Of a stretch of 23,049 nt of DNA, positions 116 through 11,279 are shown one piece after another. Below the pieces are notes generated by a model. That model did not search any database and was not told the origin of the DNA. It saw only the letters and a program-made list of their open reading frames with translations. The translations under genes and the position numbers were made by a program. Origin of the DNA: a virus; the IMG/VR virus record IMGVR_UViG_3300037485_001799, positions 1-23,049 of that record; one strand, 5' to 3'. The stretch's first letter is position 1; every line of letters starts with the position of its first letter.

Positions 116-373
116 CTAAAAAGTGTAAATAGTTTTTCGTTTTGGGAAAATTTCAGCGCCTTTTACAATTCTATAGTCGCTTATTACCCTATCGTTTTCT
201 TCCAAATATTCTCTTAGTTCACGTTGATTTTGCGCAACAAACTTAATTTCTGCTAAGTAGAATTTGGACCTCTCTCTTTTAGCACCTGACTCCTCAGCTT
301 CTAATTCCTCTGATCTTTCTTCACATCGATCAATTGCACCTTCAAGTTCTTCAAATGGATTTTTCTCGCTCAT
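116..373 (-). CDS. Small acidic coiled-coil protein, unknown function
   Basis: An 85-aa leftward ORF. Its ATG at 373 is preceded on the minus strand by an AAGGGG ribosome binding site at good spacing. Residues 5-65 are dominated by E, R, K and L with few glycines or prolines, which suggests a long helix or coiled coil. There is no recognisable domain, signal peptide or membrane segment. It is divergent from the gene starting at 449 and its stop abuts a candidate leftward promoter, so it probably belongs to a leftward early operon that continues outside the window. Function is unknown. Confidence 0.6.
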   Translation of the reverse strand: MSEKNPFEELEGAIDRCEERSEELEAEESGAKRERSKFYLAEIKFVAQNQRELREYLEENDRVISDYRIVKGAEIFPKRKTIYTF

Positions 374-4666: not shown

Positions 4667-4697
4667 AAAGACTCCTTTCAATGTGGAGTCTTTTTTT
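4667..4697 (+). terminator. Rho-independent terminator of the recT unit
   Basis: A perfect 9-bp stem AAAGACTCC (4667-4675) / GGAGTCTTT (4685-4693) with a 9-base loop, continuing into T7. It lies between the convergent recT unit and the leftward gene whose stop is at 4696-4698, and may insulate both. Confidence 0.85.
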
Positions 4698-5241
4698 ATT
4701 TTGGAGGTAGGATATTTATCCCGTTCAAATTCGCAAACTCGATTAACTCTGGTACTGTTTTAATAGATTTCCCATTATCCAACGGTATCTCGGTTCCATT
4801 CTCAATCATCTTTATTAGCTCGTCAATGTGAGGGATTCTTCCACCCATGCGCAAAAACTCGCTCTTTGCAAGACAGGTTGGGCATAGCTCAAACTTGTCG
4901 GTATACATTTCCATGAAATCACTTTCCGGTATTACTCCAATCGGCTCAAACGATTTCTCATTGTAGAGCACAAAATCTCTTGGGTTAACTTGTACTGTTT
5001 GCCCATTTCCTAGGGTGCATCGTCCGTGGGTGCATACCCGAATCATTTTACTACCTTGTGAAAAGTAGTTTTCTACTTCACTTCCCCTTAAAATATCCTT
5101 GGGATCAAAGCTTTGCTGTGGTGGCGGTTGTGGTATGTCGATTAAGACATCGACCACGTTTGGCAAATTACTAAATGGTGTCCATTGTTTGGAATATACT
5201 CTTTTTGGAATTCTTGTAAATATCGTACCGTATTCAGCCAT
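4696..5241 (-). CDS. Accessory protein with Cys pairs, unknown function
   Basis: A 181-aa product from ATG 5241, which has AAAGGAAAG upstream on the minus strand; in-frame codons further upstream lack such a site. Visible features are a proline-rich PQPPPQQ (37-43), a pair C70/C75 in CTHGRC, and CPTC (120-123). The two Cys pairs could bind zinc or form a disulfide. It has no signal peptide and no membrane segment. The last 40 residues look helical and amphipathic. It is transcribed away from the two paralogous genes at 5352 and 5717 and shares a promoter gap with them, suggesting a common module. I do not recognise the family. Confidence 0.6.
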   Translation of the reverse strand: MAEYGTIFTRIPKRVYSKQWTPFSNLPNVVDVLIDIPQPPPQQSFDPKDILRGSEVENYFSQGSKMIRVCTHGRCTLGNGQTVQVNPRDFVLYNEKSFEPIGVIPESDFMEMYTDKFELCPTCLAKSEFLRMGGRIPHIDELIKMIENGTEIPLDNGKSIKTVPELIEFANLNGINILPPK

Positions 5242-5269
5242 TTTTAATGCTTTCCTTTCTAAACCTGTA

Positions 5270-5298
5270 TTGACGTTTAATATTTTTAGTAATATCAT
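5270..5298 (+). promoter_or_regulatory. Promoter of the duplicated gene pair
   Basis: TTGACG (5270-5275), a 17-base spacer and TATCAT (5293-5298): a good sigma-70-type match. An 11-bp perfect inverted repeat, TTTTTAGTAAT (5283-5293) and ATTACTAAAAA (5322-5332), has one arm in the spacer/-10 and the other just before the ribosome binding site. Its position suits a DNA operator, since the left arm lies upstream of the expected start of transcription. Confidence 0.6.
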
Positions 5299-5351
5299 AA
5301 AATTACATAAACAATCTATTTATTACTAAAAAATCAGTGAAAGGAAACTCT

Positions 5352-5654
5352 GTGGACCAAAACATTTATGACATCATTTTAGGTCAAATTGCTAACGATG
5401 TTGCTCTACAAGCAAGGGCGGCTAACTCGGCTTTTATCACTAACATGTCGGGCGTAAACGCTGTTCATGCTCGTTGCGCGCAAGTAATTGATAAAAGGAT
5501 TGCAGAGTATGACATTGAGGAAGTGAGGGCAACAACATCATTCGACCCAGCAAGTCAAAGTTTCTGGTTATCAAAAACTAATCAAGACAACGGTGCAGGT
5601 CAAAACGCAACTGGTCAACTATTAGAAATTTTAAGACAGATGCAAAAAAAATAA
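5352..5654 (+). CDS. Alanine-rich ~100-aa protein, paralog A
   Basis: A 100-aa product. GTG 5352 is preferred over GTG 5337: the site AAAGGA lies 6 bases before it, and the resulting N-terminus aligns with that of the downstream paralog. The sequence is helical and alanine/glutamine-rich (ANDVALQARAANSAF), then HARCAQVIDKRIAEYDIEE, then a more polar tail with DPASQSFWLSK and a helical end. It has no signal peptide, membrane segment or known catalytic motif. It matches the 5717 product at 53 of 67 core positions by my count. Function is unknown; the small size and duplication suggest a self-assembling or paired structural or effector protein. Confidence 0.7.
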   Translation: MDQNIYDIILGQIANDVALQARAANSAFITNMSGVNAVHARCAQVIDKRIAEYDIEEVRATTSFDPASQSFWLSKTNQDNGAGQNATGQLLEILRQMQKK

Positions 5655-5716
5655 ACCCTTAGCTAGTGCCGAACAGCTATCGGATATTTTAATTTTAACA
5701 AAGGAAGGGATAAATT

Positions 5717-6025
5717 ATGGCACAAGGAAGTGATGTTTTAGAATTAATTAATGGCCAGTTTGCTAATGATGTTGCATTGCAAGCGCGCGCGGCTAACTCA
5801 GCGTTTGTTACTAACATGGCAAGCGTACAATCAAATCATGCTCGTTGCGCGCAGGTTTTAGATAAGCGTATCTCTGAATACGATATCGAAGAAAACCGAG
5901 CGGCAACAAGTTGGGACCCAGCAAGTCAAAGCATGTGGCTATCTAAAGCGAATGCTGATAGCGGCAATGTAAACATTGGCACTGGCCTACTTCTCGAAAT
6001 TCTTCGCACAGCACAAGCAAAGTAA
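5717..6025 (+). CDS. Alanine-rich ~100-aa protein, paralog B
   Basis: A 102-aa product and tandem duplicate of the gene at 5352, with AGGAAGGGA before its ATG. The core from GQ.ANDVALQARAANSAF through DPASQS.WLSK is nearly the same. Differences cluster at residues 1-12, around SVQSNH and in the Gly/Asn-rich stretch before the C-terminal helix LLLEILR. Conservation of one Cys (HARCAQ), DKRI and EYDIEE in both copies points to selection rather than a decaying copy. The 62-base gap holds no convincing terminator, so both copies probably come from the promoter at 5270. A strong terminator follows. Function is unknown. Confidence 0.72.
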   Translation: MAQGSDVLELINGQFANDVALQARAANSAFVTNMASVQSNHARCAQVLDKRISEYDIEENRAATSWDPASQSMWLSKANADSGNVNIGTGLLLEILRTAQAK

Positions 6026-6075
6026 GTTGACTGTTTTCCGGTGATAGTCTATTTATAGCTGGTCAACGGGAAAAC
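6026..6075 (+). ncRNA. Possible pseudoknot in the 3' leader-out region
   Basis: Two perfect complementary pairs cross each other: GTTGAC (6026-6031) with GTCAAC (6062-6067), and GTTTTCC (6033-6039) with GGAAAAC (6069-6075). The order A-B-A'-B' gives an H-type pseudoknot in the RNA just before the terminator. No known RNA family is recognised. Confidence 0.35.
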
Positions 6076-6082
6076 AATTCGG

Positions 6083-6122
6083 ATAGTCGGAAGGAAGCAA
6101 TTCCAACCGACTATTTGTTTTT
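6083..6122 (+). terminator. Strong terminator after the paralog pair
   Basis: ATAGTCGG (6083-6090) pairs with CCGACTAT (6107-6114). Inside, GGAA/TTCC pairs around a GCAA loop, with an AA/AA internal mismatch, and a T-rich tail follows. It overlaps the stop codon of the convergent gene at 6111. The segment GATAGTC is also present at 6043-6049, offering an alternative partner for the right arm. Confidence 0.8.
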
Positions 6123-6566
6123 AAGCATATTGAAGATTTTTGTTTGGAGTGTAAATGTTTCAACGATTAATTCGTTGATTTCATTTTTACCGACAATTCC
6201 TGATTCATAGAGGGCATCAAGCTTTTTTCTTAGCACATTTACATCAGCATAAATGCTCTCAAGCGGCGCGGTTGAATACTGGCTAGTCGATTGGGCTTTT
6301 GGTGGGGTAGGGCTTTCGATTGGTGACATACAATTCCTTTCATTCGTTTCATTTGAGATATTCTCAATTGTCGGCTCTTTTGCAAGAGGCTCTAGGGCTA
6401 TTGGCTCTTTTCCTTCTTTGATAGATCTAATATTAGCGACTGTACGCGCTGCTTTATTAGCTCCATCTAAGATTGTGTCTAACATATGCTTCTGGTCTTC
6501 AGACTTGCTGTAAACCATAGTCTTTAAAATTTGTAACATGATTAGTTTCTCCAACATATCGTCCAT
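6111..6566 (-). CDS. Helical protein of unknown function
   Basis: A 151-aa product if translation starts at ATG 6566 (GGAAG about 12 bases upstream). TTG 6584 and ATG 6557 are in-frame alternatives, so the start is uncertain. The N-terminal third is helical and hydrophobic/charged (MLEKLIMLQILKTM), the middle is a proline- and serine-rich linker (about 65-105), and the C-terminal 45 residues are again helical with heptad-like leucines. This dumbbell layout suits a scaffold or adaptor. It converges on the duplicated gene pair and closes the accessory island. No family recognised. Confidence 0.55.
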   Translation of the reverse strand: MDDMLEKLIMLQILKTMVYSKSEDQKHMLDTILDGANKAARTVANIRSIKEGKEPIALEPLAKEPTIENISNETNERNCMSPIESPTPPKAQSTSQYSTAPLESIYADVNVLRKKLDALYESGIVGKNEINELIVETFTLQTKIFNMLKNK

Positions 6567-6602
6567 TGTGGTTTTTGCTTCCAAGTCATGTTAAGTTTTT
6601 GT

Positions 6603-6619
6603 ATACAGTAGATACAGTA
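6603..6619. repeat. Direct repeat ATACAGTA x2
   Basis: ATACAGTA occurs at 6603-6610 and 6612-6619, a 9-base period, in the gap between the divergent genes 6566 (leftward) and 6639 (rightward). It is a candidate regulator binding site, unproven. Confidence 0.3.
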
Positions 6620-6638
6620 TATGGGAAAGGGTTTATAT

Positions 6639-6842
6639 ATGCAAAATACAGTTTATTTTCATTTTGTGAAAAAGTTTCTGGTAAGGATAAATCAAAAATT
6701 CTGTGTCCATAGGTGGAGTTACAATAAGTCTGTCACTTTGGTAGGCCGTCGTTGTGCTGAATATGTTTGTGTGAAATGTGGTAAACTAGGGCATATAATC
6801 TATAGGCATGAATATGAAATTAAAAACGGGAAGGCTTTATAA
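6639..6842 (+). CDS. Small Cys/His-rich, zinc-ribbon-like protein
   Basis: A 67-aa product. ATG 6639 is chosen because GGAAAGGG lies 7 bases upstream; ATG 6621 contains that site and is less likely. C22/H24, C39 and CVKCGKLGH (C44, C47, H52) give enough ligands for one zinc site, and the protein is strongly basic. Small phage proteins with this CxxCGK pattern are common but their function is mostly unknown. It starts the run of small genes to 9532, and its end overlaps a 38-codon membrane ORF. Confidence 0.6.
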   Translation: MQNTVYFHFVKKFLVRINQKFCVHRWSYNKSVTLVGRRCAEYVCVKCGKLGHIIYRHEYEIKNGKAL

Positions 6843-6924
6843 AGCAGGGTTTTTGACTTGTTTTTCGATCACGGTTTTAGCTCTCTATTCGATTAATGAT
6901 ATTAACCGCCCTGCACTAAAGTAA
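6808..6924 (+). CDS. 38-aa single-span membrane peptide
   Basis: A short ORF (ATG 6808, or ATG 6814 with AGG at proper distance) overlapping the end of the preceding gene in another frame. It encodes a basic N-terminus (MNMKLKTGRLYK) and one hydrophobic segment, AGFLTCFSITVLALYSI, with positive charge on the N side. It resembles other tiny membrane ORFs in this block. It could be a chance ORF, but the membrane-span layout and nearby AGG make it plausible. Confidence 0.4.
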   Translation: MNMKLKTGRLYKAGFLTCFSITVLALYSINDINRPALK

Positions 6925-6950
6925 TTATACTCAAAACCGGAGTTAAGCAA

Positions 6951-7232
6951 GTGAAATTAGCCGCTAATGATGTTGTAAAGAAGCTTTCGCAAAGGGATAT
7001 ATGGGAACAACTTAACCAGACACAAGAAGAATGCGGCGAATTAGTGACCGCAATATCTCATCTAAGAAGAAAAAAGGGTGTAGATCCCTATGATTTGTTA
7101 TGTGAAGAAATAGCGGACGTTTTCATTATGATTAACCAGTGTTATTTATTTCTTGACAGCAAAAAAATTGATAAAAAAGTTAATGAAAAAATAGCACGAG
7201 CAAAAGAAAGGCTAGAAAATGGAACTATCTAA
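6951..7232 (+). CDS. MazG-like nucleotide pyrophosphohydrolase
   Basis: A 93-aa all-helical protein with the paired acidic signature of the MazG/dUTPase-like superfamily: EExxE at residues 26-30 and EExxD at 52-56, which coordinate magnesium. Members hydrolyse (d)NTPs to NMP and pyrophosphate. Phage versions are thought to clean the nucleotide pool or change (p)ppGpp-linked signalling; substrate cannot be read from sequence. The start is GTG 6951 with CGGAG upstream. The last 14 bases overlap the next small ORF. Confidence 0.8.
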   Translation: MKLAANDVVKKLSQRDIWEQLNQTQEECGELVTAISHLRRKKGVDPYDLLCEEIADVFIMINQCYLFLDSKKIDKKVNEKIARAKERLENGTI

Positions 7233-7335
7233 TCTATCTACTTTAGCAATTATAATTATTGCGAGTGTTAACGGCATGGCATGGGGTGCATTATTAACCT
7301 GCGCTATTTTATATTTCATAGGAAAAAATAGATAA
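7219..7335 (+). CDS. 38-aa membrane protein
   Basis: A short ORF starting inside the end of the MazG-like gene, with AAAGG 8 bases before its ATG, and ending TAATG into the next start. It encodes one long or two short hydrophobic segments (LAIIIIASV and AWGALLTCAILYFI) with a basic GKNR tail. The exact overlaps on both sides and the good ribosome site make it a real gene, likely co-translated. Function unknown. Confidence 0.65.
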   Translation: MELSNLSTLAIIIIASVNGMAWGALLTCAILYFIGKNR

Positions 7336-7538
7336 TGATTTCTATTCTGGTCACAATATCCATAGTTTGGATAGTTATATTAACTGTTTGTTTGCTAGGT
7401 GTAATGTCGCTTTATCAAGCACTAAAAATTGAACAAGGGCAAATTAATAAACTATTCGATAAAAGACATTGGTTTTTAGATGAAAAAATCACAATGGTAA
7501 ATGAGCGAGTCAACAACATGAAAATAAAATATAAATGA
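7335..7538 (+). CDS. Small protein with N-terminal membrane anchor
   Basis: A 67-aa product starting in TAATG with the previous gene. Residues 3-27 are a hydrophobic helix (ILVTISIVWIVILTVCLLGVM); the rest is a charged helix ending in basic residues. A short anchored protein with a cytoplasmic or periplasmic helix recalls Rz-like spanins or superinfection proteins in layout only. It overlaps the next gene by 4 bases. Function unknown. Confidence 0.65.
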   Translation: MISILVTISIVWIVILTVCLLGVMSLYQALKIEQGQINKLFDKRHWFLDEKITMVNERVNNMKIKYK

Positions 7539-7744
7539 AAGTTTATTTGCAGATAGTTTTGGCTCTATCAACATCATATCTGATCACATGTATCATATGC
7601 GAATTCATGCTTAAGGTTACTAAAAAACGAGATGAAGACTACGGCGGCGATGGTTCTTTGAATTGTCCACACTGCAAAAAACAGCTTAGCCTATGGCAAA
7701 CTCTCAACATGTCTCGTTGTCCACGCTGCAAACGCTTTTGGTAA
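7535..7744 (+). CDS. Membrane-anchored zinc-ribbon protein
   Basis: A 69-aa product. Residues 5-26 are hydrophobic, followed by KKRDED and a Gly-rich linker, then CPHC (44-47) and CPRC (62-65), a four-Cys zinc ribbon at the extreme C-terminus. It starts ATGA-coupled to the gene before, and is the last gene before an inverted-repeat-containing gap. A single-span protein with a C-terminal ribbon might hold a partner at the membrane; this is inference only. Confidence 0.7.
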   Translation: MKVYLQIVLALSTSYLITCIICEFMLKVTKKRDEDYGGDGSLNCPHCKKQLSLWQTLNMSRCPRCKRFW

Positions 7745-7748
7745 TATT

Positions 7749-7838
7749 CCCTATTAGTTGTCAAAATACACAATCTTTTTATTGAGATATCTATTCAAAT
7801 CATTTATAAGGCAAGTTGCGTTATCGCAACTAATAGGG
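7749..7838 (+). promoter_or_regulatory. Long-range 12-bp inverted repeat covering a ribosome binding site
   Basis: CCCTATTAGTTG (7749-7760) is perfectly complementary to CAACTAATAGGG (7827-7838), which contains most of the AGGGG ribosome binding site of the gene at 7846. A local stem GTTGCG-TTAT-CGCAAC (7815-7830) competes for the CAAC bases. A promoter lies between the arms. Only RNAs that start upstream carry the left arm and could fold over the ribosome site. Confidence 0.55.
7782..7810 (+). promoter_or_regulatory. Internal promoter for the 7846 operon
   Basis: TTGAGA (7782-7787), a 17-base spacer and TATAAG (7805-7810); each hexamer matches consensus at 5 of 6 positions. Transcription would begin near 7817, downstream of the left arm of the inverted repeat at 7749-7760. 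Confidence 0.6.
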
Positions 7839-7845
7839 GCGCTTT

Positions 7846-8040
7846 ATGCAATTAAAGGGATTTTTAAGAAATAAAACCGACAAGTTTATGAAAATCGGTA
7901 AGAAAAAAAGAAACTCTCAAAATGCTAAATATATTTTTATAGTTCTCGTTACTTGTGCAATTTACTCGATAGCATCATTAATAGTAGACTATTACAAAGA
8001 AAAACACGAATTCATCGAAAAAATTGAAAGGGAAAAATGA
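7846..8040 (+). CDS. Small single-span membrane protein
   Basis: A 64-aa product. The N-terminal 27 residues are very basic, then comes one membrane helix (YIFIVLVTCAIYSIASLIV) and a charged C-terminal helix. By the positive-inside rule the N-terminus is cytoplasmic. Its AGGGG site is part of the inverted repeat at 7827-7838, so expression may depend on which promoter made the RNA. It overlaps the next gene by 4 bases. Confidence 0.65.
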   Translation: MQLKGFLRNKTDKFMKIGKKKRNSQNAKYIFIVLVTCAIYSIASLIVDYYKEKHEFIEKIEREK

Positions 8041-8465
8041 TGCTTGAATCTTCGCAGCAATGCGATATTTGCCAAGGCCGAACGACTTGTTATTATTGCG
8101 GCAACATTCGAACGGAAAGAAAGACTTCAGCAAAAGAGCTAGAGCTAATAGACATCTATTACAATGGTGGGAAAATAGTTCATATGTCTTTAGAGGATTC
8201 AAAAGATTCTCAGGTTGAAACGCAGGAAATTACCAGGGATATGGTAAAAGATATCGGCGCAGTAATCACGACACATACCTATGAGGTTTATCCAAATTTT
8301 TTCCCTTTCTGGCCGGAAGCTGGAAAGTATGTTGATATTTTAGGTAAATTGCTGCAAAAGGATGAAACGGTTGGGAGAATTATCACAACATCAAACAAAA
8401 TGACGAATGGAAGAATAAGCAAAATTGTGGCTTTCGAGGTGAAACATGGAGAAGTTAGATCTTAA
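8037..8465 (+). CDS. Protein with N-terminal Cys4 zinc-binding motif
   Basis: A 142-aa product beginning in an ATGA overlap. Residues 9-21 carry CDIC then CYYC five residues later, a compact Cys4 motif like a zinc knuckle, followed by a helical and then beta-rich domain with no recognised motif. It could bind nucleic acid or a protein partner. Its last 20 bases overlap the HTH gene at 8446. Family unknown. Confidence 0.65.
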   Translation: MMLESSQQCDICQGRTTCYYCGNIRTERKTSAKELELIDIYYNGGKIVHMSLEDSKDSQVETQEITRDMVKDIGAVITTHTYEVYPNFFPFWPEAGKYVDILGKLLQKDETVGRIITTSNKMTNGRISKIVAFEVKHGEVRS

Positions 8466-8640
8466 CAAAGAACAGATGAGAATTGTCAATCTTGCTATAG
8501 CTAAATGTGGTTCTGTGGACACGCTAGCAGCTAGGCTAGGTGTTTGTAGGCAAACCGTATTTAAATGGAGAAGCGGAGTACACAGCATGAAATGGTCAAT
8601 GGCTATGGAATTAATGAAATGGGCAAATAGGAAAAAATGA
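8446..8640 (+). CDS. Cro/YdaS-like helix-turn-helix protein
   Basis: A 64-aa protein almost wholly made of a lambda-repressor-type HTH: SVDTLAARLGVCRQTVFKWRSG (about 23-44) is the classic helix-turn-recognition helix, with TVFKW reading the DNA. Length and layout fit Cro or YdaS-type phage regulators. GAGGTGA precedes the ATG, which lies inside the end of the gene before. A second protein of the same type is encoded at 11109-11279. Its operators may be the paired palindromes at 10115-10165 and 10629-10679; this is a guess. Confidence 0.75.
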   Translation: MEKLDLNKEQMRIVNLAIAKCGSVDTLAARLGVCRQTVFKWRSGVHSMKWSMAMELMKWANRKK

Positions 8641-8643
8641 TAA

Positions 8644-8814
8644 ATGGTAAGCAAAGGGGATGGTGAGGCGTTTTTAGTCGCTTGTATGGTAGCAGCTTTT
8701 TTAATTGGGATAGGCGCGTTTGGCGGCTGGACAGCTAACAGTTGGTATCATTCTGATAAATATTCTGTGTGTCGCGAATATGAGAAGTTTAGGAATAAGG
8801 AAAATAAGGAATAA
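8644..8814 (+). CDS. 56-aa small membrane protein
   Basis: A short ORF directly after the HTH gene, with AGGA about 11 bases upstream of ATG 8644. It contains one hydrophobic segment (AFLVACMVAAFLIGIGAFGGW) and a charged C-terminal tail with one Cys. It lies in an otherwise empty stretch between coding genes, which supports it being real. Function unknown. Confidence 0.6.
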   Translation: MVSKGDGEAFLVACMVAAFLIGIGAFGGWTANSWYHSDKYSVCREYEKFRNKENKE

Positions 8815-8882
8815 ACTTGCAACAAAATAGTTAAAACGGTATGCATGTTTTTTCGGATAAAACACTATGAGAGGTAATAAAA

Positions 8883-9233
8883 ATGAGAGAAGCGGTTGCT
8901 ATAGTTAGTAAAGACGAAGATCTAATTGTTGTTCAAAAAGAAATGAAAGAATGCCGTGGTGTTCTTGATGAGTTAGAAAAAGAAATTAATCTTAGGGCTA
9001 GAGAAATTGTTAAGACAAAAATTAATCCGCTGTGGGAAAAGCTAGTCTCGGTTTGTAAAGAGAAGGGATATCTTCCAGCCGATTTTGAAGAACACAAATA
9101 TAGTGTTGGTTTAGAAGACGGTGTGGTTTTCATAGAGGAAAAACTTGGCGCTGATGAAGAAATGAGCGATTTGGTTAAGAGAGTTATGTTTAGAGATGAT
9201 GAAGTTGAAGATATAGAGTGTAAGGAAGCATAA
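8883..9233 (+). CDS. Acidic helical protein, unknown function
   Basis: A 116-aa product with GAGAGGT upstream of ATG. The first 60 residues are a charged helix (VQKEMKECRGVLDELEKEI), the rest is mixed, and the tail (DDEVEDIECKEA) is strongly acidic. Acidic small phage proteins sometimes mimic DNA or inhibit host enzymes, but nothing here shows that specifically. A GTG-started gene follows two bases after its stop. Confidence 0.65.
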   Translation: MREAVAIVSKDEDLIVVQKEMKECRGVLDELEKEINLRAREIVKTKINPLWEKLVSVCKEKGYLPADFEEHKYSVGLEDGVVFIEEKLGADEEMSDLVKRVMFRDDEVEDIECKEA

Positions 9234-9235
9234 CC

Positions 9236-9532
9236 GTGTATTTAGTTATAAATAAATCTATTACGCTCAATCTAGATCTATATTTATACTATCAAATTAC
9301 TTCTACACAAACTAGAGGTGACGCTAGAGACATAGAGCTAGTAGTCTGCTTTGGTAAATTAGTTAAAGGTGAGTTTGATAGCTATATTCTTTGTAGTGTG
9401 CATCATTCTAAAGCAGATGAAACAGTTGCAAGAATCAAAACTATGATCGATAGTGCTATTGTCATGGGTAGGTATCTTATAGATATATCTCATGATTTGA
9501 CGATTATGAATAATAACGGGTTTGATATCTAA
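9236..9532 (+). CDS. Hypothetical 98-aa protein
   Basis: Starts at GTG 9236 with AAGGAAG 8 bases upstream, inside the end of the previous gene. It has alternating beta-like segments (SITLNLDLYLYYQIT, IELVVCFGKLV, SYILCSVHH) and a helix, suggesting a small alpha/beta fold. There is no signal peptide or known motif. It ends in a 4-base convergent overlap with the RuvC-like gene. Function unknown. Confidence 0.6.
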   Translation: MYLVINKSITLNLDLYLYYQITSTQTRGDARDIELVVCFGKLVKGEFDSYILCSVHHSKADETVARIKTMIDSAIVMGRYLIDISHDLTIMNNNGFDI

Positions 9533-10029
9533 ACACACTCAATAAATAGCAAATCATTTGGAACCGTGACGCTGTTATCTTGCCCTGCAAAGCGCGCAAT
9601 AAAGAAAGCGTCTATAATTCCATCATCTCCTTTTTGAATCTTCCCAAAACTCGGATTAAGCCTTTTAAACGCTATAAGGCTTTTTTCTTTTGCAGTTAAA
9701 TCTTTAGATCCCTGACCAACATGCGCTTTGGCTTGCCATTTTTTGGGTGTTACAAGCTGATTAGGGTGTTTCTTGATCATTAGTCTCATCTGATTATAAT
9801 AACCGCCAAACGCAAAATTGTTAGGAATTCCCCAAATTTTATTAGAATGTACTTGCTCCAAGTAAATGAAATCAGCGCAGCGAAAATTGAACATAGCATT
9901 AATCAAATCAACTTCAAGTAGTCCATCTTCGCAATATGGAATTTTCATGTATCTACAGGCTTTTTCATATGTATCTATCTCAACAATAGCGCCACGATTT
10001 CCGGGATCGATGCCAATCAAAATTGTCAT
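9529..10029 (-). CDS. RuvC-like Holliday junction resolvase
   Basis: A 166-aa leftward protein. The RNase H-like active site is readable: D8 in GIDPGNRGAI, E58 in YLEQ, and D135/D136 and D140 in GDDGIIDAFFIARFA. Length and motif order match phage RuvC-type resolvases, which cut four-way and branched DNA, so it would debranch replicating DNA before packaging and complete RecT-mediated recombination. The start has GGAAGGAAT upstream on the minus strand. It stands alone on this strand with its own promoter. Confidence 0.88.
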   Translation of the reverse strand: MTILIGIDPGNRGAIVEIDTYEKACRYMKIPYCEDGLLEVDLINAMFNFRCADFIYLEQVHSNKIWGIPNNFAFGGYYNQMRLMIKKHPNQLVTPKKWQAKAHVGQGSKDLTAKEKSLIAFKRLNPSFGKIQKGDDGIIDAFFIARFAGQDNSVTVPNDLLFIECV

Positions 10030-10058
10030 TATTTTATTCCTTCCATTGTTTGTAAATA

Positions 10059-10087
10059 ATATTACATAGATACCGTTTTTTTAGCAA
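10059..10087 (-). promoter_or_regulatory. Promoter of the RuvC-like gene
   Basis: On the minus strand TTGCTA (10087-10082), a 17-base spacer and TAATAT (10064-10059). It is divergent from the promoter at 10114. Confidence 0.45.
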
Positions 10088-10113
10088 TTATTTTTATTTT
10101 CGATAAAAAAAGA

Positions 10114-10165
10114 TTGACACGAATGTCATGCTATACTATAACTCGGACATGGCACTAATGCCATG
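10114..10165 (+). promoter_or_regulatory. Promoter with paired operators, copy 1
   Basis: TTGACA (10114-10119), 17 bases and TATAAC (10137-10142). Two inverted repeats with the same 4-base centre flank it: TGACA-CGAA-TGTCA (10115-10128) over the -35, and CATGGCA-CTAA-TGCCATG (10148-10165) over the start site. Copy 2 at 10628-10679 has the same arrangement, so one repressor should control both. Confidence 0.7.
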
Positions 10166-10185
10166 ACGGACTAAGGAAAAACAAA

Positions 10186-10377
10186 ATGAAAAGAATGATA
10201 GATAAATCAAAAATGTCAGGCGTGAAAATACTAGGAGAATTCAAGTTTGTTGATAACGGTGCTTGTTGGGCAGTTTATAAAGAAATTAATGGAGCATATA
10301 TCTATCAATATACGACAAGTAAAATATATAAAGAATCAAACATTAACCTATACAATAGCGTAAAAGAAAAAATGTAA
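10186..10377 (+). CDS. Small hypothetical protein under operator copy 1
   Basis: A 63-aa basic product with AAGGAA before its ATG. It has short beta-like stretches (VKILGEFKFV, CWAVYKEI, YIYQYT) rich in Tyr and Lys, and no recognised domain. It is the first gene behind a repressible promoter, so it is likely made either early or in lysogeny. Function unknown. Confidence 0.6.
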   Translation: MKRMIDKSKMSGVKILGEFKFVDNGACWAVYKEINGAYIYQYTTSKIYKESNINLYNSVKEKM

Positions 10378-10421
10378 AAAACTCTTTAGACAATTACCAA
10401 GATGAAACAAATGGGTAAATC

Positions 10422-10631
10422 ATGAAAATTAAACTAACAAATTCCTTTCATAATACAGAAGCGTATGTGATCACAAAAGACGGAAATTTATCTTCTAGGC
10501 AAGTAAAAGCAGCAAGGAAAAAGCTTTGTCCATATGGCAATTGTCAATGTTCTGGACCTCTTGGAATTAGAGGAGGCGATATTGAAGGAATAGTTTGGCA
10601 CGATCATACGGCTACAATAAAAAACTATTGA
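10422..10631 (+). CDS. Small phage protein with FHNT and Cys motif
   Basis: A 69-aa product. FHNTEAYV near the N-terminus, then a basic helix SSRQVKAARKKL and CPYGNCQCSGPLGIRGG. I have an impression of a recurring small phage family with FHNT followed by a Cys-rich LGxRG segment, with no known role; this is memory, not a search. The Cys residues could bind a metal. Its stop overlaps the -35 box of operator copy 2, so the two units are tightly packed. Confidence 0.6.
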   Translation: MKIKLTNSFHNTEAYVITKDGNLSSRQVKAARKKLCPYGNCQCSGPLGIRGGDIEGIVWHDHTATIKNY

Positions 10632-10679
10632 CACAAATGTCATGTTGTTATAGAAGTTGTTCATGGCACTAACGCCATG
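10628..10679 (+). promoter_or_regulatory. Promoter with paired operators, copy 2
   Basis: TTGACA (10628-10633) with a weaker -10: TAGAAG at 17-base spacing or TATAGA at 15. TGACA-CAAA-TGTCA (10629-10642) and CATGGCA-CTAA-CGCCATG (10662-10679, one mismatch) repeat the layout of copy 1 at almost the same spacing. Confidence 0.65.
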
Positions 10680-10698
10680 TACAACGAAAGGAACGAAG

Positions 10699-10905
10699 AT
10701 GCAAACAGCTAGCCATAGATTGATCAATAACATGATTTGTAACCGCATGGGAAAGATCGAAGATTTAACACAAAAGATGTTTCATGAAGCACTATCTAAA
10801 GAATTCGAAGCTGAATGCATCAATGCAACGGACACAACGAACATAGGTCTTAAAAATTCAATCATTGCAAGACTTGATACGATAATCGAACAACTAGAAT
10901 ATTAA
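10699..10905 (+). CDS. Small helical protein under operator copy 2
   Basis: A 68-aa product. ATG 10699 is chosen because AAAGGAAC lies 6 bases upstream; an in-frame TTG at 10657 would lie inside the operator. It is mostly helical and charged, ending in IIARLDTIIEQLEY, a leucine-zipper-like tail. No recognised domain. It heads a three-gene unit ending in an HTH gene. Confidence 0.6.
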   Translation: MQTASHRLINNMICNRMGKIEDLTQKMFHEALSKEFEAECINATDTTNIGLKNSIIARLDTIIEQLEY

Positions 10906-10915
10906 GGAGAAAAAC

Positions 10916-11107
10916 ATGTTTCAAATCATAAAAACCAAAAACGAAGAAACAAACAACGACCAATGGACATTACAAAGGGTAGACGGGAAAAGCTGGGAAG
11001 ATGGTGTTGTTGGATGGAATTTTGACTACACAGATGAAGGCGGGCTAGCTGCTTTAAACTGCATGGAAAGACTAAATAAAAGATATAACCTAGAAGTTAA
11101 GGAATAA
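10916..11107 (+). CDS. Small acidic hypothetical protein
   Basis: A 63-aa product with AAGGAGA before its ATG. It has beta-like N-terminal strands, aromatic-rich WTLQRVDGKSWEDGVVGWNFDY, then a helix AALNCMERLNKRY. It is followed one base later by the HTH gene. Function unknown. Confidence 0.6.
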   Translation: MFQIIKTKNEETNNDQWTLQRVDGKSWEDGVVGWNFDYTDEGGLAALNCMERLNKRYNLEVKE

Positions 11108-11108
11108 T

Positions 11109-11279
11109 ATGAAAGTTGAACAACTCATAAAAAACAGCATAAAGGTAACTAAGACTAACATTGCACTAGCTGCTTACCTAGGCTGTAACGAAAGAACAAT
11201 ATACCGATGGTTAAGCGGCCAATTTGTTCCTAATTCTAAGTTTGTCATGAAAATGATAGAGCTAACCAAAAATCTGTAA
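11109..11279 (+). CDS. 56-aa Cro/YdaS-like helix-turn-helix protein
   Basis: A short ORF with AAGGA 6 bases before ATG. NIALAAYLGCNERTIYRWLSG (about 17-37) is a clear HTH that shares LAAxLG....T.(Y/F).W.SG with the protein at 8446. It is the last gene of the unit driven by operator copy 2, a natural place for an autorepressor of that operator pair. No CI-sized repressor is in the window. Confidence 0.72.
   Translation: MKVEQLIKNSIKVTKTNIALAAYLGCNERTIYRWLSGQFVPNSKFVMKMIELTKNL

Follow-up and report, generated by a model that had tools for sequence, protein, structure and literature searches.

A possible promoter-dependent mask over the ribosome site of a small phage gene

Can a single segment of phage DNA yield either a translated or a silent message, depending on where transcription starts? 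The question is raised by the leader of a small gene starting at 7846, where an inverted repeat overlies the ribosome site and a promoter sits between the two repeat arms. The DNA is an IMG/VR virus record of an uncultured phage; "the window" is the whole 23,049-nt stretch that was analysed. Terminase and major head protein genes were found in the window, the terminase having only distant matches (∼23% identity) among sequenced phages.

Anatomy of the 7846 leader

Gene order around the leader (7745–7845) is a MazG-like protein (6951), small proteins (7335 and 7535), the leader itself, 7846, 8037 and a helix-turn-helix-like protein (8446). Genes are co-directional from 6639 onward, the 7846 region included, and no terminator-like site was found in 6500–7900, that is, none separating the upstream genes from 7846. 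Read-through RNA into 7846 is therefore expected. The features of the locus, with their counterparts in the relative L012, are as follows.

7535–7744, plus strand: upstream gene, 69 aa, stop codon TAA at 7742–7744; ortholog at L012:2777–2977 (39% identity)
7749–7760, plus strand: left arm, CCCTATTAGTTG (7748–7761 with G-U ends), from repeat search and folding; absent in L012
7782–7810, plus strand: sigma70-like promoter by sequence match, TTGAGA (7782–7787), 17-nt spacer, TATAAG (7805–7810); consensus score 10/12
7814–7831, no strand: dyad AGTTGCG-TTAT-CGCAACT over the predicted transcription start; L012 has GTTGCGATATCGCAAC in the same place
7827–7838, plus strand: right arm, CAACTAATAGGG, from repeat search and folding; overlies the AGGG of the ribosome site
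7835–7839, plus strand: Shine-Dalgarno AGGGG, 6 nt ahead of the ATG at 7846
7846–8040, plus strand: gene putatively controlled by the leader, 64-aa basic protein; ortholog at L012:3803–3988 (47% identity)

The 7846 product has one hydrophobic segment and no PHROG family match, and is probably a small membrane protein. The 7535 protein combines a hydrophobic N-terminal stretch with zinc-ribbon-like CxxC pairs, its zinc-ribbon matches being weak and under the Pfam cut-offs. Elsewhere in the window, 5352–5654 and 5717–6025 encode tandem paralogous proteins of ∼100 aa each, also in tandem in L012, with no PHROG or Pfam match.

The perfect 12-bp repeat over AGGGG reported in the sequence-only reading was borne out: the arms are exact complements separated by 66 nt, and the folded stem gains the pairs U7748-G7839 and U7761-G7826, for 14 in all. 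The promoter reported between the arms was likewise recovered, although the promoter scan applied demands T as the last −10 base and so passes over TATAAG. From the usual spacing, transcription is predicted to start at about 7817. The local stem described at 7815–7830 is present and slightly longer (7814–7831; 7 bp, loop TTAT, −8.6 kcal/mol).

The fold of 7740–7870 is predicted at −30 kcal/mol (z −3.7), with 0/200 shuffles equally stable. Perfect repeats of at least 12 bp with a loop of at most 100 nt number 2 in the whole window, versus 0.18 expected, and arose in only 5 of 20,000 shuffles of the 101-nt leader. A stem of at least 12 bp covering the ribosome site arose in none of 20,000. Among ∼200 genes in five phage records, the 7846 stem is the longest covering a ribosome site, and when the gene sets were shuffled, 2 of 60 reached a 12-bp stem of this kind. 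The stem is probably not accidental, though it was chosen after the fact. Searching Rfam models against the window gave one match, at chance level and outside the leader, and no known RNA family or riboswitch in the leader. In IMG/VR, beyond the window, the repeat pair occurs solely in the near-identical contig L002.

These counts bear on whether the inverted repeat is a functionless product of chance or of mutation by template switching, which we hold improbable. Its restriction to one lineage would suit such an origin, as would AGGGG masking of similar strength in 20% of shuffles and the triviality of the remaining ribosome-site-covering repeats here, which arise where divergent genes have ribosome sites complementary to each other; the scarcity of 12 perfect pairs over a ribosome site, in leader shuffles and shuffled gene sets alike, argues the other way. 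Inverted repeats flanking a promoter could also be recombination sites between which the promoter flips. This we find very hard to credit: a search of the phage record and four relatives, records that may be fragments, found neither a tyrosine integrase nor a serine resolvase domain, the segment has the same orientation in the near-identical contig, and 66 bp between sites is very short.

Those other covering repeats were considered as signs of a general rule in this phage and rejected, because they appear to be complementary divergent ribosome sites. At 4696–5241 (minus strand) and 5352 (plus strand), GAAAGGAAA faces TTTCCTTTC; the same applies to 116–373 (minus strand), whose divergent partner was judged from the ORF list. 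Wherever two divergent genes have such matching ribosome sites, inverted repeats over both arise automatically, a trap for searches for masked ribosome sites.

Predicted opening of the ribosome site in long and short RNAs

We tentatively propose, at somewhat less than an even chance, that the 7846 leader masks its ribosome site in a promoter-dependent manner, by the logic of phage T4 gene e and Bacillus sigG. The internal sigma70-type promoter would lie between the arms of the 14-pair RNA stem. In read-through RNA the long stem would form, hiding AGGGG and leaving 7846 poorly translated; RNA from the internal promoter would lack the left arm, and its AGGGG would be mostly free. As RNA, the dyad would compete with the long stem, helping to free AGGGG if the start is at 7815 or before. 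We infer that both RNA forms exist, that the long stem reduces translation and that their difference in timing is of use.

Folding predictions made the masking of read-through RNA, a central claim of the sequence-only reading, thermodynamically plausible, with ∼4 kcal/mol needed to open AGGGG (3.5–5.7 kcal/mol in RNAs with the left arm). Complementing the left arm in silico brought the cost down to 0.43 kcal/mol. The further claim, that the short RNA keeps a free ribosome site, depended on the 5′ end: for ends within 7762–7815 opening was predicted to be easy (0.2–0.55 kcal/mol at 7762–7800 and 0.8–1.2 at 7812–7815); for later ones the cost rose to 2.2–2.5 kcal/mol at 7816–7818, with 2.4 at the predicted +1 of 7817, and exceeded 3 kcal/mol at 7819–7820. 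With a start at 7817 the site would be less open than the sequence-only reading assumed, because the RNA then has just the right half of the local stem, which can pair elsewhere. With both transcript forms folded, the long one was masked and the openness of the short one depended on its exact 5′ end; in these models, the exact transcription start matters for access to the ribosome site. Minimum-energy folds of the growing chain placed the local stem earliest, with the long stem forming once 7839 had been made.

The AGGGG opening cost is in itself unexceptional, matched by 199/1000 shuffles of the upstream block, because CCC-containing sequence pairs readily with AGGGG. The cost of opening a 30S-sized footprint was rarer in shuffles (5/300).

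Masked ribosome sites can also be released by translational coupling, as in phage MS2 and in ribosomal-protein operons. Applied here, read-through RNA would stay closed unless 7535–7744 were translated, and a ribosome at 7742–7744 would free AGGGG. As in the known coupling systems, a ribosome halted at the upstream stop codon would cover the left arm, which starts just 5 nt past that codon. With 7728–7752 or more held unpaired, as by a terminating ribosome, the predicted opening cost of the read-through RNA dropped from 3.9 to ∼1.6 kcal/mol. In L012, the upstream gene holds candidate left arms in its final codons, and an ATGA overlap joins the 7846 ortholog to its own upstream gene. A terminating ribosome departs quickly, however, and the stem can reform; moreover, unlike coupling systems, the 7846 leader has an internal promoter, which coupling alone makes superfluous. 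We regard coupling as a strong rival to the masking switch and the best one, although as the explanation of this leader we think it doubtful, and equally doubtful that the amount of 7846 protein follows that of the upstream protein. Coupling and switch are compatible: translation of read-through RNA would then go no further than translation of the upstream gene allows.

Known systems with the same logic

In T4 genes e, soc, 49 and I-TevI, and also in Aeh1 mobE, the ribosome site is masked in early or read-through RNA and free in late RNA (PMC3014915, PMC2988022). Like the T4 gene e group, the 7846 leader has its ribosome site in a predicted stem and a promoter so placed that the short RNA lacks the 5′ strand. 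It differs in that its promoter is of sigma70 type, where T4 uses a late promoter, its loop is 66 nt long, a dyad is added at +1, and the gene and phage are unrelated; the resemblance is one of sequence. In Bacillus subtilis sigG, a large hairpin (20+ pairs) is proposed to block spoIIG read-through RNA and is missing from RNA of the sigG promoter; the ribosome site of that RNA is itself covered by a small hairpin (PMC5942855). Shared with the 7846 leader are the inability of own-promoter RNA to form the large hairpin, the proposed masking of read-through RNA and a co-directional upstream operon, whereas the longer stem, sporulation control and cellular gene set sigG apart.

The 7846 leader is thus a probable further example, on its sequence, of a known type of switch. 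If the reading is true, this adds an independent case in which the place of transcription start decides whether the message of one DNA segment is translated or silent, here in a phage distant from T4, and it shows that sequence can reveal such switches. It would also explain how a small membrane protein is kept off in a co-directional operon until its own promoter fires. The masking logic is already known from T4 and sigG. The general picture is unchanged.

Promoter and start-site dyad in relatives

Relatives of the 7535, 7846 and 8037 proteins were found in IMG/VR only in L002 and L012, and none of the 8037 protein in GTDB genomes. L002 is 99.6% identical to the window; the two do not differ anywhere from 5265 to 11239, which leaves no covariation to test. 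The only diverged syntenic relative found was L012 (record G001), with an ortholog of 8037 (55% identity) as well as those of 7535 and 7846. There, three other genes lie between the 7535 and 7846 orthologs, and a 106-nt leader directly 3′ of the 7535 ortholog aligns to the window leader better than 1000 of 1000 shuffles. It reads TTGAAA-17-TATAAC, then AAG, then GTTGCGATATCGCAAC; the promoter is conserved as TTGAAA-17-TATAAC in L012 and L140. Common to the window and L012 is a dyad just 3′ of the promoter, GTTGCG[A/T]TATCGCAAC, which supplies most of the alignment signal: without it, 53/1000 shuffles matched. The 12-bp repeat was not found in the L012 leader: an alignment gap takes up most of the left arm, and no right arm is there. 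The conserved core is therefore the promoter plus dyad, and the repeat is lineage-specific; it is probably a block like those of T4 gene e and sigG.

The dyad could equally be an RNA 5′ hairpin or a DNA repressor operator. Both fit alike because the two phages share the dyad arms exactly and differ in the loop alone. The functional element may instead be the promoter plus an operator over +1 for a repressor, with the 12-bp repeat incidental or minor; to our minds this is unlikely as the whole account. It would explain why the promoter and dyad are the parts conserved and why the L012 dyad (L012:3046–3061) is a perfect 16-bp DNA palindrome, centre included. Other window promoters, at 10114 and 10628, have dyads in the same position, and two small helix-turn-helix-like proteins, both weak matches, are encoded in the window at 8446 and 11109. 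An operator nonetheless leaves unexplained a 12-bp ribosome-site-covering stem that is absent from shuffles, and no second copy of the dyad was found in the window.

In L012 the leader precedes a lipoprotein-like gene; the 7846 ortholog comes later in the operon and is entered via the ATGA overlap. Because the leader adjoins the 7535 ortholog and not the 7846 ortholog, it travels with the upstream gene. Opening the L012 ribosome site AAGGAA (footprint −14 to −5) is predicted to cost 5.4–6.2 kcal/mol in RNA reaching at least 150 nt upstream, 1.2 at 110 nt and 0.4–0.5 from the predicted starts. When 187 genes were ranked by the difference in opening cost between long and short RNA, the L012 gene came fifth and the window's 7846 eighth. 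Shuffles of the upstream block reached the L012 masking in 29/1000 cases, and in 16–19/300 in a second test, a hint, weakly beyond chance, that masking may also occur in long RNA of the L012 leader, by different sequences. Promoter and dyad might then be conserved and the masking arms reinvented in each lineage, leaving the downstream gene, whichever it is, silent in read-through RNA; we rate this decidedly unlikely.

The sequence anatomy, the rarity of the stem and the conservation of promoter and dyad hold as observations. Promoter-dependent masking gains from that rarity and conservation, from the effect of the left arm on opening and from the expected read-through; against it stand the absence of the arms in L012, the 2.4 kcal/mol at 7817 and the prospect that a terminating ribosome could lift the block. 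It is the reading that fits most facts, accounting for the largest share of them.

We noted the palindrome GTTGCGATATCGCAAC in many of the >100 IMG/VR contigs matching GTTGCGNTATCGCAAC, including loci L015–L132, where the palindromic form is far commoner than other variants. It often lies directly 5′ of AGAAAGGAG-ATG or has a stop codon on one side and a terminator-like hairpin on the other, and sometimes adjoins a sister palindrome, GTTGTGACGTCACAAC; we did not find it in print in the literature searched. Its presence in >100 phage contigs was set aside as support, since it is over-represented but the leaders are not homologous.

A different leader recurs at window 10114–10165 and 10628–10679, and in a related phage at L006:8677–8728. 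Its layout is TTGACA with a TGACA-N4-TGTCA dyad over the −35 (N3 in L006), a hairpin CATGGCACTRAYGCCATG 5 nt past the −10 (imperfect in L006), then a ribosome site and ATG. By sequence, the three look like a family of co-regulated promoters. Finally, L012:3359–3604 and window 10422–10631 encode small cysteine-containing proteins, related by eye, at differing places in the two phages; each has a promoter carrying a start-site dyad close by, suggesting cassette shuffling around such promoters.
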